Positions 34,876 through 39,982 of a DNA stretch of 64,000 bases are shown here, in pieces. The stretch lies in assembly GCF_015644585.1 (NCBI RefSeq), contig NZ_JADOBI010000014.1, forward strand, positions 1 through 64,000, read 5' to 3'. The position numbers and the translations under genes were made by a program. How positions within the stretch are numbered: the first letter of the stretch is position 1; each line of letters starts with the position of its first letter. Source of the DNA: Rahnella laticis (GTDB lineage: Bacteria; Pseudomonadota; Gammaproteobacteria; Enterobacterales; Enterobacteriaceae). A model generated the notes under the pieces. It was given only the letters and a program-made list of their open reading frames with translations. It was not told the DNA's origin and ran no database searches.

Positions 34876-35174
34876 GTTCTCTCCCTGTTCAGATGAAGGA
34901 ATAAATCCGTGAAACAGGCTTTAAGCCTAGCGGAGAACCGCGCCCTTCGTGGATATCAGCTGCATTACTTCACCCGGATAGCACTACAGCCGCCGTATTA
35001 CGGGGGCTGAAAGAGACGTAACAAAGTGCGAATGAGGCGGATGGCAGATCCCCCTACCGGCCATTTATCTCCCGTTTCCAGCCAGCCAACGGATATTTTC
35101 ATGGCACACGTCGCCCTACTCTTTGTCTGCGGGTCCGCACCTCGTATCGCACTTATCCAACAGGAGTAAACATT
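34876..35174. other. Gene-free region before the DUF2589 cassette
   Basis: This 299-bp region separates the divergent SDR gene and the DUF2589 operon and presumably holds both promoters. No convincing -10/-35 pair, operator or RNA structure was seen. A good ribosome-binding site CAGGAG lies at its right end before the first DUF2589 gene. Confidence 0.5.
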
Positions 35175-35813
35175 ATGGATTCACAATTTATTGGTTCCGT
35201 CATCAATGCCCTGCCACTGGAAAACATGATTGGCGGGCCGTTGCAGGCCATGATCAAAGCGCAGGTTCAGGCCAGTAAAGCTTATGCCGACTTCCTGCTT
35301 TCGGTTTGTATTAAAGATGGCAAGGCAGAGGCCGTTCAGTTTGACTACGACGAAACGGTTGTCGATCAGGCTGGCGTCATCCAGGGGGTGGTCAAAAAGA
35401 CCATGCGCATTCCTCTGCTGGCGGCCATCACCCATCCGATTATTTGTATTGAAGAAGGTACGATTGACTTCGAACTTGAAGTGACTCAAAGCGAATCCAG
35501 CTCCAGCAGCGATGACGCCGAAGGCTCTTTCGAAGCCACTTTGGGCTGGGGGCCGGTCAAAGTAAAAGTCTCCGGGCGTGTTTCACATAAAGCCGAACAA
35601 ACCCGTAAATCCGATACCCGCGCCAAATACAGCATCCACACGCAGATCAAACGCCAGCAACCGCCGGAAGCACTGATGCGCGTGATCGACTTCCTGACGG
35701 ATGCCGCGACTAAACCTGCCGTTCTGCCAGCCGAAGCGAACAAAAAAGAGCTGGATGCTTTCACACCAACAGCAACATCCGCGGATAAAACCCCGGAAAA
35801 AGCACCAGCCTGA
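35175..35813 (+). CDS. DUF2589 domain protein 1
   Basis: This 212-aa protein is recognised as DUF2589-like; the family has no assigned function. There is no signal peptide or membrane helix. An N-terminal amphipathic helical region (residues 10-45, rich in Ala/Gln) leads to RIPLLAAITHP (78-88) and beta-rich segments. A Ser-rich loop (residues 105-112), GWGPVKVKVSGRVSH, the motif PPEALMRVIDF (163-173) and a disordered Ala/Thr/Lys tail follow. The same IPL..A..TP and PPE..MR.ID pattern occurs in the second protein of this family 70 bp downstream. It is the first gene of the putative export/lysis cassette. Confidence 0.8.
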   Translation: MDSQFIGSVINALPLENMIGGPLQAMIKAQVQASKAYADFLLSVCIKDGKAEAVQFDYDETVVDQAGVIQGVVKKTMRIPLLAAITHPIICIEEGTIDFELEVTQSESSSSSDDAEGSFEATLGWGPVKVKVSGRVSHKAEQTRKSDTRAKYSIHTQIKRQQPPEALMRVIDFLTDAATKPAVLPAEANKKELDAFTPTATSADKTPEKAPA

Positions 35814-35843
35814 TCATGCCGGTGTCTGACAACGTCTAATCCG

Positions 35844-35868
35844 AAGGCCGCCAGCGCGGGGCCTTTTT
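35844..35868 (+). terminator. Terminator-like hairpin between the two DUF2589 genes
   Basis: AAGGCC, an inner GC-rich stretch, and GGCCTT followed by TTT form a hairpin with a short U-tract between the first and second DUF2589 genes. It could partially end transcription and so make the first gene more abundant than the rest of the cassette. Confidence 0.6.
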
Positions 35869-35883
35869 AATCAGGAGCAGGTT

Positions 35884-36483
35884 ATGTCTTTAAAAAGCTG
35901 GCTACGGGGCGGGAAAACTACTGGCGAAACATCGTCGGGCGGAGCGGTTCCTCCTCCGGGGAATTCAGGCACGCCGCCTCCACCGTCACCGGGAGGGCTG
36001 ATGCCGGTATCGCTTGAAGAAGTTACCCGCGGTATGCAACAAGCGGCTAGCGCAGCCAACCAGCTGATTGCACATCAATATATGCAGGCGCTGGATCCGT
36101 ATTTTGAACATCTTGATGACGGTTCAGTCGTACCGCGCACGATGATTATGCAGATTGACGACAAGCATCATTTCGAGCTGCCTTTAGTCGCACTCTCCAC
36201 GCCGCGTGGGCTGATGCTGGAAAAAATGAAGGTTCATCTGACCATCCGTACCGATGGCGTTGAACAGTTGCCCATTGAAGGTGGCGAAGAAAACGTCAGT
36301 CGTTTTCACGTAAGTCTCTCGCCTGCCAGCAAAAATCAGGAAGGCCGTGACAGCCGTCATGTGGATATCGAGATGCAGTTTACCGTGCTCGAACCACCCG
36401 AAAGTGTCATGCGCCTGATTGATGAATACACCAACCGGGTTATCCCGAAACCTAACACGACAGAGGTATCTGCTGATGAGTGA
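35884..36483 (+). CDS. DUF2589 domain protein 2
   Basis: This 199-aa protein shares landmarks with the preceding DUF2589 protein: ELPLVALSTPRG (98-109) versus RIPLLAAITHP, and PPESVMRLIDEY (171-182) versus PPEALMRVIDFL, at similar spacing. It differs by a Gly/Pro-rich N-terminal linker (residues 15-40). No signal peptide or membrane helix is present. The end overlaps the muramidase start by 8 bp, suggesting translational coupling. Function is unknown; a structural or carrier role in the cassette is only inference. Confidence 0.78.
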   Translation: MSLKSWLRGGKTTGETSSGGAVPPPGNSGTPPPPSPGGLMPVSLEEVTRGMQQAASAANQLIAHQYMQALDPYFEHLDDGSVVPRTMIMQIDDKHHFELPLVALSTPRGLMLEKMKVHLTIRTDGVEQLPIEGGEENVSRFHVSLSPASKNQEGRDSRHVDIEMQFTVLEPPESVMRLIDEYTNRVIPKPNTTEVSADE

Positions 36484-36931
36484 GCCACGTTTATCTACCG
36501 GCGCAAAAGGGGTTGCGCTGATCAAAACTTTCGAGGGACTGCGTCTGGAAAAATATCAGGATGTTGTCGGTAAATGGACCATCGGTTATGGGCATCTTAT
36601 CCTGCCGGATGAATCTTTTTCTGCTGCAATCCCGGAAGCGCAGGCTGACGCGCTTTTGCGTCAGGATCTGGGTATCAGTGAGAAAGCAGTGAATCAGTAC
36701 GTCATTGTTCCGCTCACGCAGAATCAGTTTGATGCGCTGGTCTCTTTCACCTTCAATCTTGGCATCGGCAATTTGAAAAGCTCAACATTACTGAGAGTGC
36801 TGAATGCGCGTCAGTATCAGGATGCGGCTAATGAATTCCTGCGTTGGGATAAAGCGGGTGGGAAACAGGTTGCCGGATTAATCCGGCGTCGTACGGCAGA
36901 GCGCGCGTTATTCATCAGCCAGCCGGAATAA
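36476..36931 (+). CDS. GH24 muramidase (phage-type endolysin), no signal peptide
   Basis: This 151-aa T4-type lysozyme hydrolyses the peptidoglycan glycan backbone. The catalytic triad is complete as E-x8-D-x5-T: Glu20 (TFEGL), Asp29 (YQDVV) and Thr35 (KWTIGYGH). Later conserved parts are FDALVSFTFNLGIGNLKSST and EFLRWDKAGGKQVAGLIRRR. It has no signal peptide or signal-anchor, so it must reach the periplasm by a holin or other route. Two holin-like membrane proteins lie further down the same strand. The start at 36476 overlaps the previous gene by 8 bp; an earlier in-frame ATG lies inside that gene. Confidence 0.9.
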   Translation: MSEPRLSTGAKGVALIKTFEGLRLEKYQDVVGKWTIGYGHLILPDESFSAAIPEAQADALLRQDLGISEKAVNQYVIVPLTQNQFDALVSFTFNLGIGNLKSSTLLRVLNARQYQDAANEFLRWDKAGGKQVAGLIRRRTAERALFISQPE

Positions 36932-36991
36932 CGTGTTCACCGCCTTTCATTTTATATTCCCGAACATTCATGAATACAGGAAATAAACATT

Positions 36992-37495
36992 ATGACAATT
37001 CGCCGAAGTTATTTATCGGGATTATTCCCGCAACTGGTTTTTTTATCTTTTTTGGCTTTACTGACATCAACGGCGAATGCCGTCGATAAAATAAAGTGTG
37101 ATATCGCTGTTCATGATGCCAATCAGCAACTGGAAACGGATAATAACAAGACCATCAATGATGAAGCCAGCCTGGTAAAATTATTACGGACATTAAATAA
37201 GGATGACGTTTTGCCCGTGCAATATGTCACCACGGACTATGCCAAAAAACAGGGCTGGAGCGGAAATTCGCAGGATTCTCTTTGGAAAGTCTGGGTACTC
37301 AATAAGAAAGAGATTGGCGGAGACAGTGTTCAGATCCCGGAGCAGAAAAGTGGCGAAAAATGGTACAGCGCGGATCTGGAATCCGTCCGTGGATTACGCA
37401 GTGCAAAACGTCTTATTTATTCACCTCAAAGACAGGAGCGTTATTTAAGCACCAACGAAAACACATCCAGAGTTATTATTAAAGCCTGTATTTAA
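36992..37495 (+). CDS. Exported barnase-fold protein with missing catalytic residues
   Basis: This 167-aa protein has a Sec signal peptide (residues 1-30, ending STANA). The mature part follows the barnase/RNase N1 pattern: LPVQYVT, QGW, EIGGD, KWYSADLES, GLRSAKRLIYS. Against barnase, Asp54, Arg83 and Arg87 are kept as Asp111, Arg136 and Arg140. The general base Glu73 is Ser126, Lys27 is Thr81, and no His is present near the position of His102; the only His is residue 41. Cys36 and Cys166 could form a disulphide in the periplasm. It may therefore be a non-catalytic relative or use different chemistry. No barstar-like gene is adjacent. Base composition is A/T-richer than its neighbours. Confidence 0.7.
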   Translation: MTIRRSYLSGLFPQLVFLSFLALLTSTANAVDKIKCDIAVHDANQQLETDNNKTINDEASLVKLLRTLNKDDVLPVQYVTTDYAKKQGWSGNSQDSLWKVWVLNKKEIGGDSVQIPEQKSGEKWYSADLESVRGLRSAKRLIYSPQRQERYLSTNENTSRVIIKACI

Positions 37496-37564
37496 ACAGC
37501 ATTGAACGATAAATATCACACCTGAAGGTCCATTACTCATTTATATTCGTTGAGAGGTATCACC

Positions 37565-38137
37565 ATGTTTGAAACTTTTACGCTTCAGCAACCGGCAGGC
37601 AGCGATTCTTGTGGCGCATTTTCTCTGGCGGCATTAGTCAATGCCCGTAATCAGGGACTGCCCGTCAATACACCCACCGGTGCCACGGTATATAACGATA
37701 TTATTGCAAGACAGAATCCTCTTCCTCCCGGCTATCCGCTAATTTTTGCCCCGCCGGCACCGCGCTCGTTACCTTCAAGTCTCGTTCGTGTCGGTATCGC
37801 TCGTGGGTTTAACGATCAGGTGCAGGTTATGGTGAATAAACCGTTAATGCCCGTCGCCATGCATCCTTTAATTGGGCCGGAAACCACGCGGATTGGTAGC
37901 ACAGCAGCGGTTATAAGCAGCACCGCCAACCTTCAGGCTCTGGTTCAGGCCGCAGGTTATTACCTGGCGCTGGTGCTCGATGGCAATCACTGGATTGCGC
38001 TCGGGCGGAACGCACAAGGTTTTTACGCCTACGACCCTGCATCAAATTTCCACGGGGCCGTAAACCAGCCAGTCGGGAACCGGGTGACACTCAACGGCGT
38101 GCAGTATGACTTCTCAGGAATTGTAATCTGTTTCTGA
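37565..38137 (+). CDS. Putative papain/C39-like cysteine peptidase
   Basis: This 190-aa protein has the layout of a small papain-fold peptidase: Cys16 in GSDSCGAFSLAAL at the start of a helix, His142 in LDGNHWIALG, and Asp157 in YAYDPASN, in the order Cys-His-Asp. The middle is Pro-rich (residues 50-72). There is no signal peptide. The start at 37565 has AGAGG 8 bp upstream. It lies between the barnase-fold gene and the holin-like genes, so it may be cargo, a processing enzyme or an effector. The family assignment is from motif reading only. Confidence 0.55.
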   Translation: MFETFTLQQPAGSDSCGAFSLAALVNARNQGLPVNTPTGATVYNDIIARQNPLPPGYPLIFAPPAPRSLPSSLVRVGIARGFNDQVQVMVNKPLMPVAMHPLIGPETTRIGSTAAVISSTANLQALVQAAGYYLALVLDGNHWIALGRNAQGFYAYDPASNFHGAVNQPVGNRVTLNGVQYDFSGIVICF

Positions 38138-38197
38138 ACCGCGCTTCATTCTTCTTCAGTGCCACTCCGGTGGCACTGTCTTTCTAAGGAGTTCACT

Positions 38198-38656
38198 ATG
38201 GCAGCCGTCATGCTTGAATCCTCACAAAGTTTTCTTATCAGCCAGATCCTGGCTGCCTTTTCCGGTTTGTTTGGCGGACTGAGTATTTCTTTCTTCTGGC
38301 AGCCAAAAAAATTGCATCAGCACGGACGTTTTTCCGCCGGACTTATCATTTGCAGCATCAGTGTCGCGGCCACATTTACCCTCGGCGGTCTGGTATCGCG
38401 CTGGCTGGGGATGAACTTTGATCAGGCTGATAATGCCATGGGATTAGGCTATGGACTGGGTGTGATCAGTGTCGGAGTGATTGCCTGGCTGGCAAATTTT
38501 TTCAACCGCCGGGAAGACAGCGATATTCTCGAAGTCGCAGGAGAGCTGAAGCGAGTGGCTCGCGGGCTTCGCGCCAAAGGATCTCCGCCAGCAATTTCGA
38601 CAACAAAATCGACGCGCAGAAGAACCACCACCAGCAAACCATCACGAGGAGAATAG
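38198..38656 (+). CDS. Holin-like membrane protein 1 with basic C-terminal tail
   Basis: This 152-aa protein has three predicted membrane helices (about residues 11-34, 45-67 and 80-101). A short charged helix and a Lys/Arg/Thr/Ser tail follow (KSTRRRTTTSKPSR). Size, helix number and charged C terminus resemble class I phage holins, and a signal-less muramidase is encoded upstream. The start at 38198 has AAGGAG 7 bp upstream. The stop is one base before the next membrane gene. No holin family can be named from sequence alone. Confidence 0.6.
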   Translation: MAAVMLESSQSFLISQILAAFSGLFGGLSISFFWQPKKLHQHGRFSAGLIICSISVAATFTLGGLVSRWLGMNFDQADNAMGLGYGLGVISVGVIAWLANFFNRREDSDILEVAGELKRVARGLRAKGSPPAISTTKSTRRRTTTSKPSRGE

Positions 38657-38657
38657 G

Positions 38658-39086
38658 ATGAGTCATTTAGAATGGCCGGGATTTTTCCTGCTAACCCTCC
38701 TCGATATGATGACAGCTGTGATGATTTTCTTCTGCGCACTCAATGAACGTATCCTGCTGATGTCAGTTTGGTACCGCGTTGGCCTGATTACTGCCGCGCT
38801 GGGTTTTGCCGCACAAGGCGCACTGAATTTGCCTTACCTGCTTTATGGCACGCAGCTTTATGCCAATGAAATTCCGTTTTGGGCTTTAAAGGATATGGGG
38901 ATTTCGATGGTCGCCACCCACTATTTTTGGCTGGTTCTGCGCGATAAGCGAAAGCTGGGTACGCCTTTGGAACAAGACCGGGCAGCGAAGGCCGATAAAT
39001 CGAGGAAAACGCGGGTGAGGAAAACATCGGTTCCCGCTGTGGCGCCAGCAGGCAGGAAGAGAACAACCACCAAAACTAAATCCTGA
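38658..39086 (+). CDS. Holin-like membrane protein 2 with basic C-terminal tail
   Basis: This 142-aa protein has three hydrophobic segments (about residues 7-29, 36-60 and 75-92). A strongly basic low-complexity tail of about 45 residues follows (KSRKTRVRKT, GRKRTTTKTK). It is preceded by GAGGAG and starts one base after the stop of membrane protein 1, so both are probably made together, perhaps as a holin/antiholin pair. The tails of both proteins look like nucleic-acid or polyanion binding segments. Function is otherwise unknown. Confidence 0.6.
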   Translation: MSHLEWPGFFLLTLLDMMTAVMIFFCALNERILLMSVWYRVGLITAALGFAAQGALNLPYLLYGTQLYANEIPFWALKDMGISMVATHYFWLVLRDKRKLGTPLEQDRAAKADKSRKTRVRKTSVPAVAPAGRKRTTTKTKS

Positions 39087-39093
39087 TTAACTT

Positions 39094-39125
39094 ATCAGAC
39101 GTTGCGGCAGTAACGTCTGATCCTT
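39094..39125. terminator. Terminator of the cassette
   Basis: ATCAGACGTT, an 8-nt loop, AACGTCTGAT, then CCTTTT forms a 10-bp perfect stem 8 bp after the last cassette gene. It marks the 3' end of the operon on the plus strand. Confidence 0.72.
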
Positions 39126-39217
39126 TTCAGCCACACTGAAGATGAATAATCCCTGGTGAAAAATAAACGCCTGATGGCGGATTCTATTTACTTATTGAAA
39201 CGGTTTTTTCAAAAAAA

Positions 39218-39823
39218 TTACTCGTCGGATGACATCATCATCGCAGCCTGTGTTCTGTTTTTCACATTAAGGCGACGATAAATAGATTCAAGATGGGATT
39301 TTACTGTTCCGGCACTAATATTAAGAAGACGACTAATTTGTTTATTTGATTCTCCGGCTGCAATAAGCCTTAACACTTCCCGCTGACGATCGCTTAATCT
39401 CGTTAATAATGCCTGTTCGCTATCCATATCCCACACACTTTCACTGTGCGGAATACAGACCATTCCGCAGCATGCCGTTTTTATTACCTGGAAAATAGTC
39501 TCCATTGACGCCTCTTTTGAAACGACTGCAACAGCATGATGCTCGAGGAAGCGCCGTAGCGAGTCTTTTCTTACCTTCATTAACATCACGATGATACGGA
39601 TATGGGGATATCGGGCAGCAATATCATCCAGCAAGATGAGCTGTGAACTATTCTCCATTCCTCCGTCAATCAGTATTACGGAAATAGGGGTCGCCGAAAG
39701 TATCTCCCAAATATTTTCACATTGATTGACGCCATTAACAGAGATGTCCGGCATTGTATTTTTAAGACCAGCCGTCAATCCCTGTATAAACAGCGGCAAC
39801 GGATCAACAATGAGTATGTTCAT
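39218..39823 (-). CDS. LuxR/NarL-family regulator with non-canonical receiver
   Basis: This 201-aa protein has a receiver-like N-terminal domain and a C-terminal LuxR helix-turn-helix (LSDRQREVLRLIAAGESNKQ, then NISAGTVKSHLESIYRRL). In the receiver, Asp53 (LIDGG) and Lys103 (VVSKEAS) are kept. The usual acidic pair after the first strand is Asp7-Pro8, and the Thr/Ser switch site is occupied by Met. No histidine kinase is nearby. It is convergent with the DUF2589 cassette and probably controls it. The start at 39823 has GGGAG about 9 bp upstream. Base composition is A/T-rich. An 18-bp palindrome lies upstream. Confidence 0.82.
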   Translation of the reverse strand: MNILIVDPLPLFIQGLTAGLKNTMPDISVNGVNQCENIWEILSATPISVILIDGGMENSSQLILLDDIAARYPHIRIIVMLMKVRKDSLRRFLEHHAVAVVSKEASMETIFQVIKTACCGMVCIPHSESVWDMDSEQALLTRLSDRQREVLRLIAAGESNKQISRLLNISAGTVKSHLESIYRRLNVKNRTQAAMMMSSDE

Positions 39824-39865
39824 TATAATGACTCCCATAACTTAGAAATTGCGTGTGTGTCGGAC

Positions 39866-39883
39866 CAGAGGAAAATTCCTCTG
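39866..39883. promoter_or_regulatory. Palindrome upstream of the LuxR-type regulator
   Basis: CAGAGGAA-AA-TTCCTCTG is a perfect 8-bp inverted repeat 43 bp before the regulator start. It is a candidate operator for autoregulation; no similar copy was found upstream of the first DUF2589 gene. Confidence 0.4.
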
Positions 39884-39982
39884 CTTAACGAGTATTGACG
39901 CAATAATTAAGAAAGGGAGACGTCATTCAGCCTATGACATCAGACCAACAGACAAAAGCAATACCCCATATTTCAGTGAGGG

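Follow-up and report, generated by a model that had tools for sequence, protein, structure and literature searches.

A GH24 muramidase cassette with paired DUF2589 proteins in Rahnella laticis as a possible release module resembling type 10 secretion

A compact gene cassette encoding paired DUF2589 proteins and a GH24 muramidase was analyzed in Rahnella laticis, the window (the whole stretch of DNA under analysis) being the first 64 kb of contig 6 (NZ_JADOBI010000014.1) of a 5.73 Mb genome. Since the cassette recurs in other bacteria, it may be a route for protein release, and we regard it as about evenly balanced whether it is a domesticated phage-type release module that resembles type 10 secretion and forms a new subtype of it. 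This reading is favored because many genera share the gene order, with the cassette at different places in their chromosomes, because the relatives of its two membrane-protein genes (TMa and TMb) form a pair in phage contigs that adjoins endolysins of several classes, because the muramidase, which has no signal peptide, belongs to a lineage of cassette enzymes, and because an exchangeable hydrolase adjoins DUF2589 genes in 11 of 17 sampled genomes. It is further favored by the variation of the extra genes (a papain-like peptidase, an RNase A-like protein and, at locus L138, a Tle1-like lipase) and by the match to the published Salmonella layout of holin, signal-less hydrolase, cargo and regulator, as given in PMC13284979.

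A first-pass annotation had described seven genes on the plus strand and a convergent regulator gene on the minus strand, and all of these open reading frames (ORFs) were confirmed at the following positions.

35037..39981, no strand: whole cassette, present or absent as a unit, ~4.95 kb (comparison with empty same-genus sites)
35175..35813, plus: DUFa (P0001), DUF2589 protein of 212 aa without a hydrophobic segment (PF11655, 7.1e-27; dN/dS 0.007-0.041)
35884..36483, plus: DUFb, second DUF2589 protein, 199 aa, proline-rich N-terminus (PF11655, 5.8e-12)
36476..36931, plus: GH24 muramidase (P0003), 151 aa, without a signal peptide (PF00959, Phage_lysozyme, 4.4e-47)
36992..37495, plus: barn, putative pseudo-barnase, 167 aa, hydrophobic N-terminal segment, Cys near each end (binase, 4e-5)
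37565..38137, plus: pept, papain-like cysteine-peptidase candidate, 190 aa, in a variable slot (Cys16/His142)
38157..38178, plus: hairpin upstream of the holin-like pair (9-bp stem; spacer z -4.2)
38198..38656, plus: TMa, three-segment holin-like membrane protein with a basic tail (relatives in IMG/VR)
38658..39086, plus: TMb, membrane partner of TMa (detected together with TMa in viral contigs)
39218..39823, minus: NarL/LuxR-type response regulator, convergent (GerE, 1.7e-22; Response_reg, 3.4e-10)

The two proteins annotated as related DUF2589 members both exceed the curated PF11655 cut-off of 23, with 95.1 bits for DUFa and 46.7 bits for DUFb, and the start of the GH24 gene overlaps the stop of DUFb. 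None of barn, pept, TMa and TMb lies above a Pfam cut-off. Ratios of nonsynonymous to synonymous substitution (dN/dS) of 0.007-0.149 were obtained across all eight genes against three relatives, the synonymous sites being saturated for the most distant of these (L026). Because these ratios are low and the gene order recurs in many genera, the cassette is beyond chance.

The distribution of the cassette was characterized by a pattern-seeded scan of a genome collection with P0001, which gave 73 loci that are hence close relatives. Hidden Markov models (HMMs) of the cassette families were built from the same 73 loci and searched on their six-frame ORFs within 8 kb of DUFa, and the counts were taken from these searches because plain ORF calling missed the regulator of the window and the DUF genes of several GC-rich loci. 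The loci were sorted into taxonomic groups by their record titles. DUFb is present in 70 of the 73 loci, the exceptions (L035, L045 and L053) being contigs that end soon after DUFa. The 25 Enterobacterales loci comprise 25 with GH24, 24 with TMa, 24 with the regulator, 15 with barn, 13 with TMb and 5 with pept. Among the 28 Burkholderiales loci, 24 are long enough for comparison (at least 2 kb downstream), and these carry GH24 (23/24), the regulator (22/24) and barn (17/24), although the seven without barn may hide copies too divergent for the HMM. Both Ochrobactrum loci have GH24 and the regulator and neither has barn, while the 13 Pseudomonas loci and the five loci of other groups all have DUFb and none of the other cassette families; a GH19 gene is present in one of the latter (L056). 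Pairwise distances between DUFa proteins follow those between GH24 proteins (Spearman 0.71 over 50 loci) and, more closely, those between DUFb proteins (0.87), the points not being independent because the rows are related. The co-occurrence of DUF2589, GH24 and other cassette genes across genomes, which had been anticipated, was thereby observed. In seven Burkholderiales loci (L037, L040, L041, L051, L059, L060 and L064), three tandem related genes of ~205 aa lie downstream of barn; for one of these proteins, from L037, nothing was matched in Pfam, NCBIfam or the PDB.

In Pectobacterium and Brenneria, DUFb is displaced from DUFa. In eight of these loci (L043, L047-L050, L055, L067 and L094), genes of nonribosomal peptide synthetase/polyketide synthase type separate the DUFb-GH24-TMa block from DUFa and also follow DUFa, with Pfam matches to AMP-binding (5.8e-90, L094) and ketoacyl-synthase (2.2e-68, L047).

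The chromosomal setting also differs between lineages. Within the genus, DUF2589 occurs in 3 of 14 genomes, and in 7 of 59 relatives, the window's own genome being counted. The left-hand neighbor gene is present in 10 of the 14 same-genus genomes, eight of which are without DUF2589, and the site was compared in five of these eight. In four of them the flanks meet directly, with 51 bp in place of positions 35037-39981 in G007, whose flanks are 95-98% identical, and 4-8 bp in G003, G005 and G013; the site is also empty in G006, where the right-hand join is less exact. The regulator falls inside this unit, in which no integrase, insertion sequence or terminal repeats were seen. The empty sites are compatible with insertion in the window's genome and with loss in the relatives, and either may have occurred. 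Elsewhere, three Kosakonia cassettes have a tRNA-Leu gene nearby and, by eye, an integrase-like ORF beyond it, the cassettes of Enterobacter and Pseudescherichia are flanked by tyrB-like and alr-like genes, and those of Pectobacterium lie near nusA/rimP-like genes and a tRNA-Met gene (gene names assigned by eye).

The muramidase P0003 belongs to GH24 by Pfam and has no hydrophobic N-terminal segment, in agreement with its annotation as an enzyme without a signal peptide. In a 40-row tree, the GH24 proteins of the Enterobacterales, Burkholderiales and Ochrobactrum cassettes, together with that of L134, form one set (92/97). Eight other GH24 proteins fall outside it, as does the DUF2589-linked GH24 of L020. 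These eight were taken from 17 GH24 proteins encoded away from DUF2589 in DUF2589-bearing genomes, and four of them come from the window's genome. The evidence of the tree is good but not final, given the long branches of some rows and a fork without a star. A second GH24 gene was seen just outside the cassette in L031 and L032 (9413-9862) and in L036 (15290-15757).

Wall hydrolases beside DUF2589 were further examined in a sample free of P0001 seeding, namely 17 distinct PF11655-bearing genomes from three draws (7/59, 3/369 and 9/398, with the window's own genome in all of them). Two PF11655 matches lie close together in 16 of these genomes, and one is present in G438. A peptidoglycan hydrolase was found within ~2.5 kb of the DUF2589 genes in the 11 genomes mentioned above: GH24 in G000, G001, G011, G036 and G730 (5 of the 22 GH24 matches in these genomes, three of the cases being one cassette in one genus), GH19 in G027, G566 and G572 (3 of 8 GH19 matches), a pesticin-type muramidase in G739 that is 66% identical to that of L072, Amidase_3 in G456 and an M15-like peptidase in G652, which is the weakest assignment of the set. 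For GH24 and GH19, the two families searched genome-wide with family models, eight neighbors were seen against ~0.09 expected (30 matches in ~70 Mb; 12-kb neighborhoods around 17 pairs), three of the eight being from one genus. Outside this sample, pesticin-type muramidases were found in L065, L070, L072 and L096, and PF11860 muramidases occur on a deltaproteobacterial plasmid close to a DUF2589 gene (L018, 1.9e-66) and on a human-gut contig, where two PF11655 genes precede the muramidase (L216, 1.3e-69). The peptidase of L141 has no Pfam match that counts and was called M15-like because a phage protein of M15_4 type, that of L158, is 37% identical to it. Judged by these family assignments, the class of hydrolase beside DUF2589 is exchangeable between GH24, GH19, pesticin-type, Amidase_3, the weakly identified M15-like type and PF11860.

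No function for DUF2589 was found in the literature searched; one paper there mentions the domain (PMC3949148), and none mentions PF11655. A profile search of the PDB with DUFa returned nothing. At the distant locus L138, the neighbors of DUF2589 are Amidase_3, the Tle1-like lipase (2.8e-69) and a response regulator. The gut contig L216 (MT839761, 144-4012) is recorded as a 'phage' and carries a third gene between its two PF11655 genes, followed by a PG_binding_1-muramidase. In ten Pseudomonas-type loci (L083-L088, L090, L091, L093 and L097, of which L084 is a Paucimonas metagenome-assembled genome), the DUF2589 pair lies near TamA/TamB-like genes named by eye and downstream of a Mor-type activator gene (PF08765, 5.1e-11 in L087), and no hydrolase was found. 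On two Vibrio plasmids (L016, 9332-10828; L017, 9404-10894), the pairs lie ~10 kb or less from genes annotated with TcdA/TcdB domains. A small gene of ~85 aa stands beside or between the DUF2589 genes in L134 (7997-8263), with relatives in L016-L020, L135, L138 and L139; NCBIfam gave no match for the copy in L134, nor did Pfam for that in L017.

The membrane proteins had been annotated as two three-helix proteins with basic tails. TMa has three hydrophobic segments on the Kyte-Doolittle scale and both proteins of the window have basic tails, but the three segments of TMb overlap within residues 10-50, and five of eight other TMb rows have no tail. No tblastn match to either protein was found in 50,697 phage records. 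A scan of IMG/VR gave 45 TMa loci; six of them, which also have the regulator and further genes of the cassette, are probably bacterial islands. The contigs L146-L154 from this database carry the whole cassette or part of it and are probably bacterial genomic islands and not viruses. The remaining 39 TMa loci are metagenomic viral contigs with TMa at 48-61% identity, TMb in 37/39 and GH24 in 15/39, many contigs being near-copies; in contrast to the cassette, they have no match to DUFa, DUFb, barn, pept or the regulator. Among the contigs read (8 TMa loci and 6 TMb loci), the adjacent pair lies in most cases among late genes, as named by eye, alongside endolysins assigned by Pfam to GH24 (L159 and L200), PF11860 (L193) or M15_4 (L158), while in L205 Amidase_3 adjoins a TMb relative without TMa. 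A divergent TMa relative (L203) matches the holin family phrog_2359 at 0.0015, a gene adjoining TMb in L204 matches the same family at 3.1e-18, and the remaining TMa relatives match only families of unknown function. Because TMa and TMb are kin to this adjacent pair in environmental phage contigs, a holin-like function is supported, as far as sequence kinship can indicate it. The annotation of holin-like membrane genes thus stands for the pair, although none was detected in the Burkholderiales or Ochrobactrum cassettes. In the window's genome, the cassette copy is the single TMa match.

The spacer before TMa folds with z -1.78 or lower in nine of ten Enterobacterales cassettes, and for five of those nine, 0 of 200 shuffles fold as well. 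The spacer of Pectobacterium L048 gives no hairpin signal (z +0.84), and three other spacers in the window do not stand out.

The protein annotated as an exported barnase-fold protein is matched by binase over residues 73-146 (phmmer against the PDB), and a hydrophobic segment at residues 8-26 was read by eye as a putative signal peptide; this part of the claim stands, whereas an active RNase is rejected on the catalytic residues. In barnase numbering, the scaffold residues L20, P21, W35 and R83 are kept in 33/33 homologues, D75 in 32/33 and R87 in 28/33, the Burkholderiales rows being distant. The general base E73, the acid H102 and the residue K27 are kept in 0/33. The WREAD motif of binase aligns to WYSAD in barn, placing Ser at the position of E73, and the alignment ends before H102. 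Barn therefore looks like a pseudo-RNase, since neither E73 nor H102 occurs in any homologue. It shares the scaffold of the barnase/binase family and differs by the loss of E73, H102 and K27 and by an added pair of Cys residues, one near each end, which is visible in the aligned rows. Given its frequency in the Enterobacterales and Burkholderiales loci (15/25 and 17/24), it is a frequent companion and not obviously cargo.

Other genes of the cassette are variable. The putative cysteine peptidase has Cys16 and His142 invariant in seven aligned homologues, and the assignment is otherwise supported by a profile search that matched a cysteine protease weakly (E 0.25); genes of this type occur in cassettes of Rahnella, Ewingella, Leminorella and Pseudescherichia. 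An RNase A-like protein of CdiA-CT type with a hydrophobic N-terminus is found in Kosakonia (L031/L032) and Leminorella (L036), matching PF18431 at 7.2e-9 (L032) and 3.8e-8 (L036), and loci of Enterobacter type have four extra proteins without a family assignment. These extra genes of the Enterobacterales cassettes would encode cargo.

The nearest described systems are those of type 10 secretion, in which a holin lets a signal-less hydrolase reach the wall, with exported cargo and a regulator (PMC10847048, PMC13284979). These two papers disagree on whether the systems are lytic; a two-part spanin is described for Serratia and Yersinia and, in the text consulted, is not named for the chi operon of Salmonella. 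As described there, Serratia chiWXYZ, Yersinia entomophaga YenLC and Salmonella chiH/chiP and TtsA have in common with the cassette a gene set outside phages with one or more holin-like proteins, a signal-less hydrolase, a regulator gene and apparently exported proteins; P0003 has no signal sequence, a LuxR/NarL gene is linked to 24/25 of the Enterobacterales loci, and besides GH24 no phage genes were seen in the unit. However, the cassette differs in having a GH24 muramidase, two holin-like genes of unassigned family, a DUF2589 pair and often a pseudo-barnase, in that no spanin was found and in that holin-like genes were undetected in Burkholderiales. Among the titles listed in searches on lysis-cassette secretion, none names such a gene set.

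In the release model, the regulator would switch on the operon, and DUFa, DUFb and the signal-less muramidase would be made in the cytoplasm, while the pseudo-barnase, and the RNase A-like protein in sister cassettes, would reach the periplasm via Sec. The hairpin before TMa and TMb may limit expression of the pair, which would permeabilize the inner membrane so that the muramidase then reaches and cuts the wall. Cargo would be freed either through a subpopulation that lyses or through local opening of the wall. The roles of DUF2589 and the pseudo-barnase in this model are those we infer; the DUF2589 proteins may be what is mainly released, or they may form an assembly that works with the hydrolase.

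Several results weigh against the release model. TMa and TMb were found in none of the Burkholderiales loci by the six-frame HMM search and were not detected in those of Ochrobactrum, Pseudomonas and the other groups. Even in Enterobacterales, the 24 TMa matches include broken genes in L028 and L073, where the breaks may be real or sequencing errors, L033 has none, and TMb is present in just 13/25. By the searches used, no hydrolase was found in 6 of the 17 sampled genomes (G048, G056, G185, G329, G438 and G525), where the G329 contig is 4.1 kb long and G438 has a DUF922 gene nearby, nor in 9 of the 13 Pseudomonas loci. A lipobox scan of nine cassettes, covering the lipoprotein half of a spanin, gave no convincing candidate, two weak ORFs that start with TTG and lack a ribosome-binding-like motif being dismissed. 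Most extra genes are without a family match, and promoter-like sites are not in excess (5 vs 5.4 in shuffles); terminator-like sites number 9 vs 5.5 +- 2.3.

Among the alternative explanations, GH24 could be an effector against rivals, delivered for example by a type VI secretion system, with the pseudo-barnase as its periplasmic inhibitor and the DUF2589 proteins as carriers or further effectors. In both Enterobacterales and Burkholderiales, a signal-less muramidase has a small exported protein with paired Cys residues directly behind it, which fits such an immunity arrangement, as do the lack of a holin-like gene in the Burkholderiales cassettes and the Tle1-like lipase near one DUF2589 pair. 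However, phage-type holin-like genes are added in most Enterobacterales cassettes, the flanks are housekeeping-like, and a reading of ORFs by eye, without an HMM scan, showed neither VgrG, PAAR or Hcp genes nor a type VI secretion cluster. Furthermore, the idea of a strict GH24 inhibitor is weakened because ten Pectobacterium/Brenneria loci and both Ochrobactrum loci keep GH24 without detected barn. We consider this explanation unlikely overall, although for the form without holin-like genes it is a genuine competitor.

Programmed or altruistic lysis, for example upon phage infection or stress and with auxiliary toxins encoded by the RNase- and peptidase-like genes, is improbable. A holin-like pair, an endolysin and a regulator could simply kill the cell; however, PADLOC run on ten proteins (seven of this cassette and three of others) returned one match, Cas8a at 0.0071, which is probably due to chance, leaving a defence system without support from PADLOC, and the exported extra proteins would suggest release over self-killing. 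A decaying remnant of a prophage lysis region, which the phage-type GH24 and TMa/TMb might suggest, is very improbable and was rejected, because a DUFa relative occurs in 1 of 50,697 phage records (and in three IMG/VR contigs, all carrying the whole bacterial cassette, in a pattern-limited scan), P0003 is less than 60% identical to its match in each of 3,012 phage records, the cassette GH24s of different genera group away from the eight others, the empty sites are clean, dN/dS is low for all eight genes and the order is conserved in many genera. The annotation as a non-phage module is supported, and no capsid, tail, integrase or spanin gene was found in the ORFs read by eye at ~29.5-45.6 kb, in a PHROGs search of the eight proteins only and in the lipobox scan.

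A broader proposal, which we advance as an unlikely one, is that DUF2589 pairs mark an unnamed general class of lysin-coupled systems, in which two paralogues would form a particle, pore or sheath that any available peptidoglycan hydrolase loads or releases and that takes enzyme toxins out of the cell; the window's cassette would be one holin-assisted form and that of Burkholderiales a holin-free form.

The cassette gives DUF2589 a functional context, with exchangeable lysins in several lineages, and provides a compact genetic system for the disputed question of lytic or non-lytic secretion by holin and endolysin. It also points to a putative pseudo-RNase that is kept beside a muramidase and, in phages, to an uncharacterized holin-like family of two genes.

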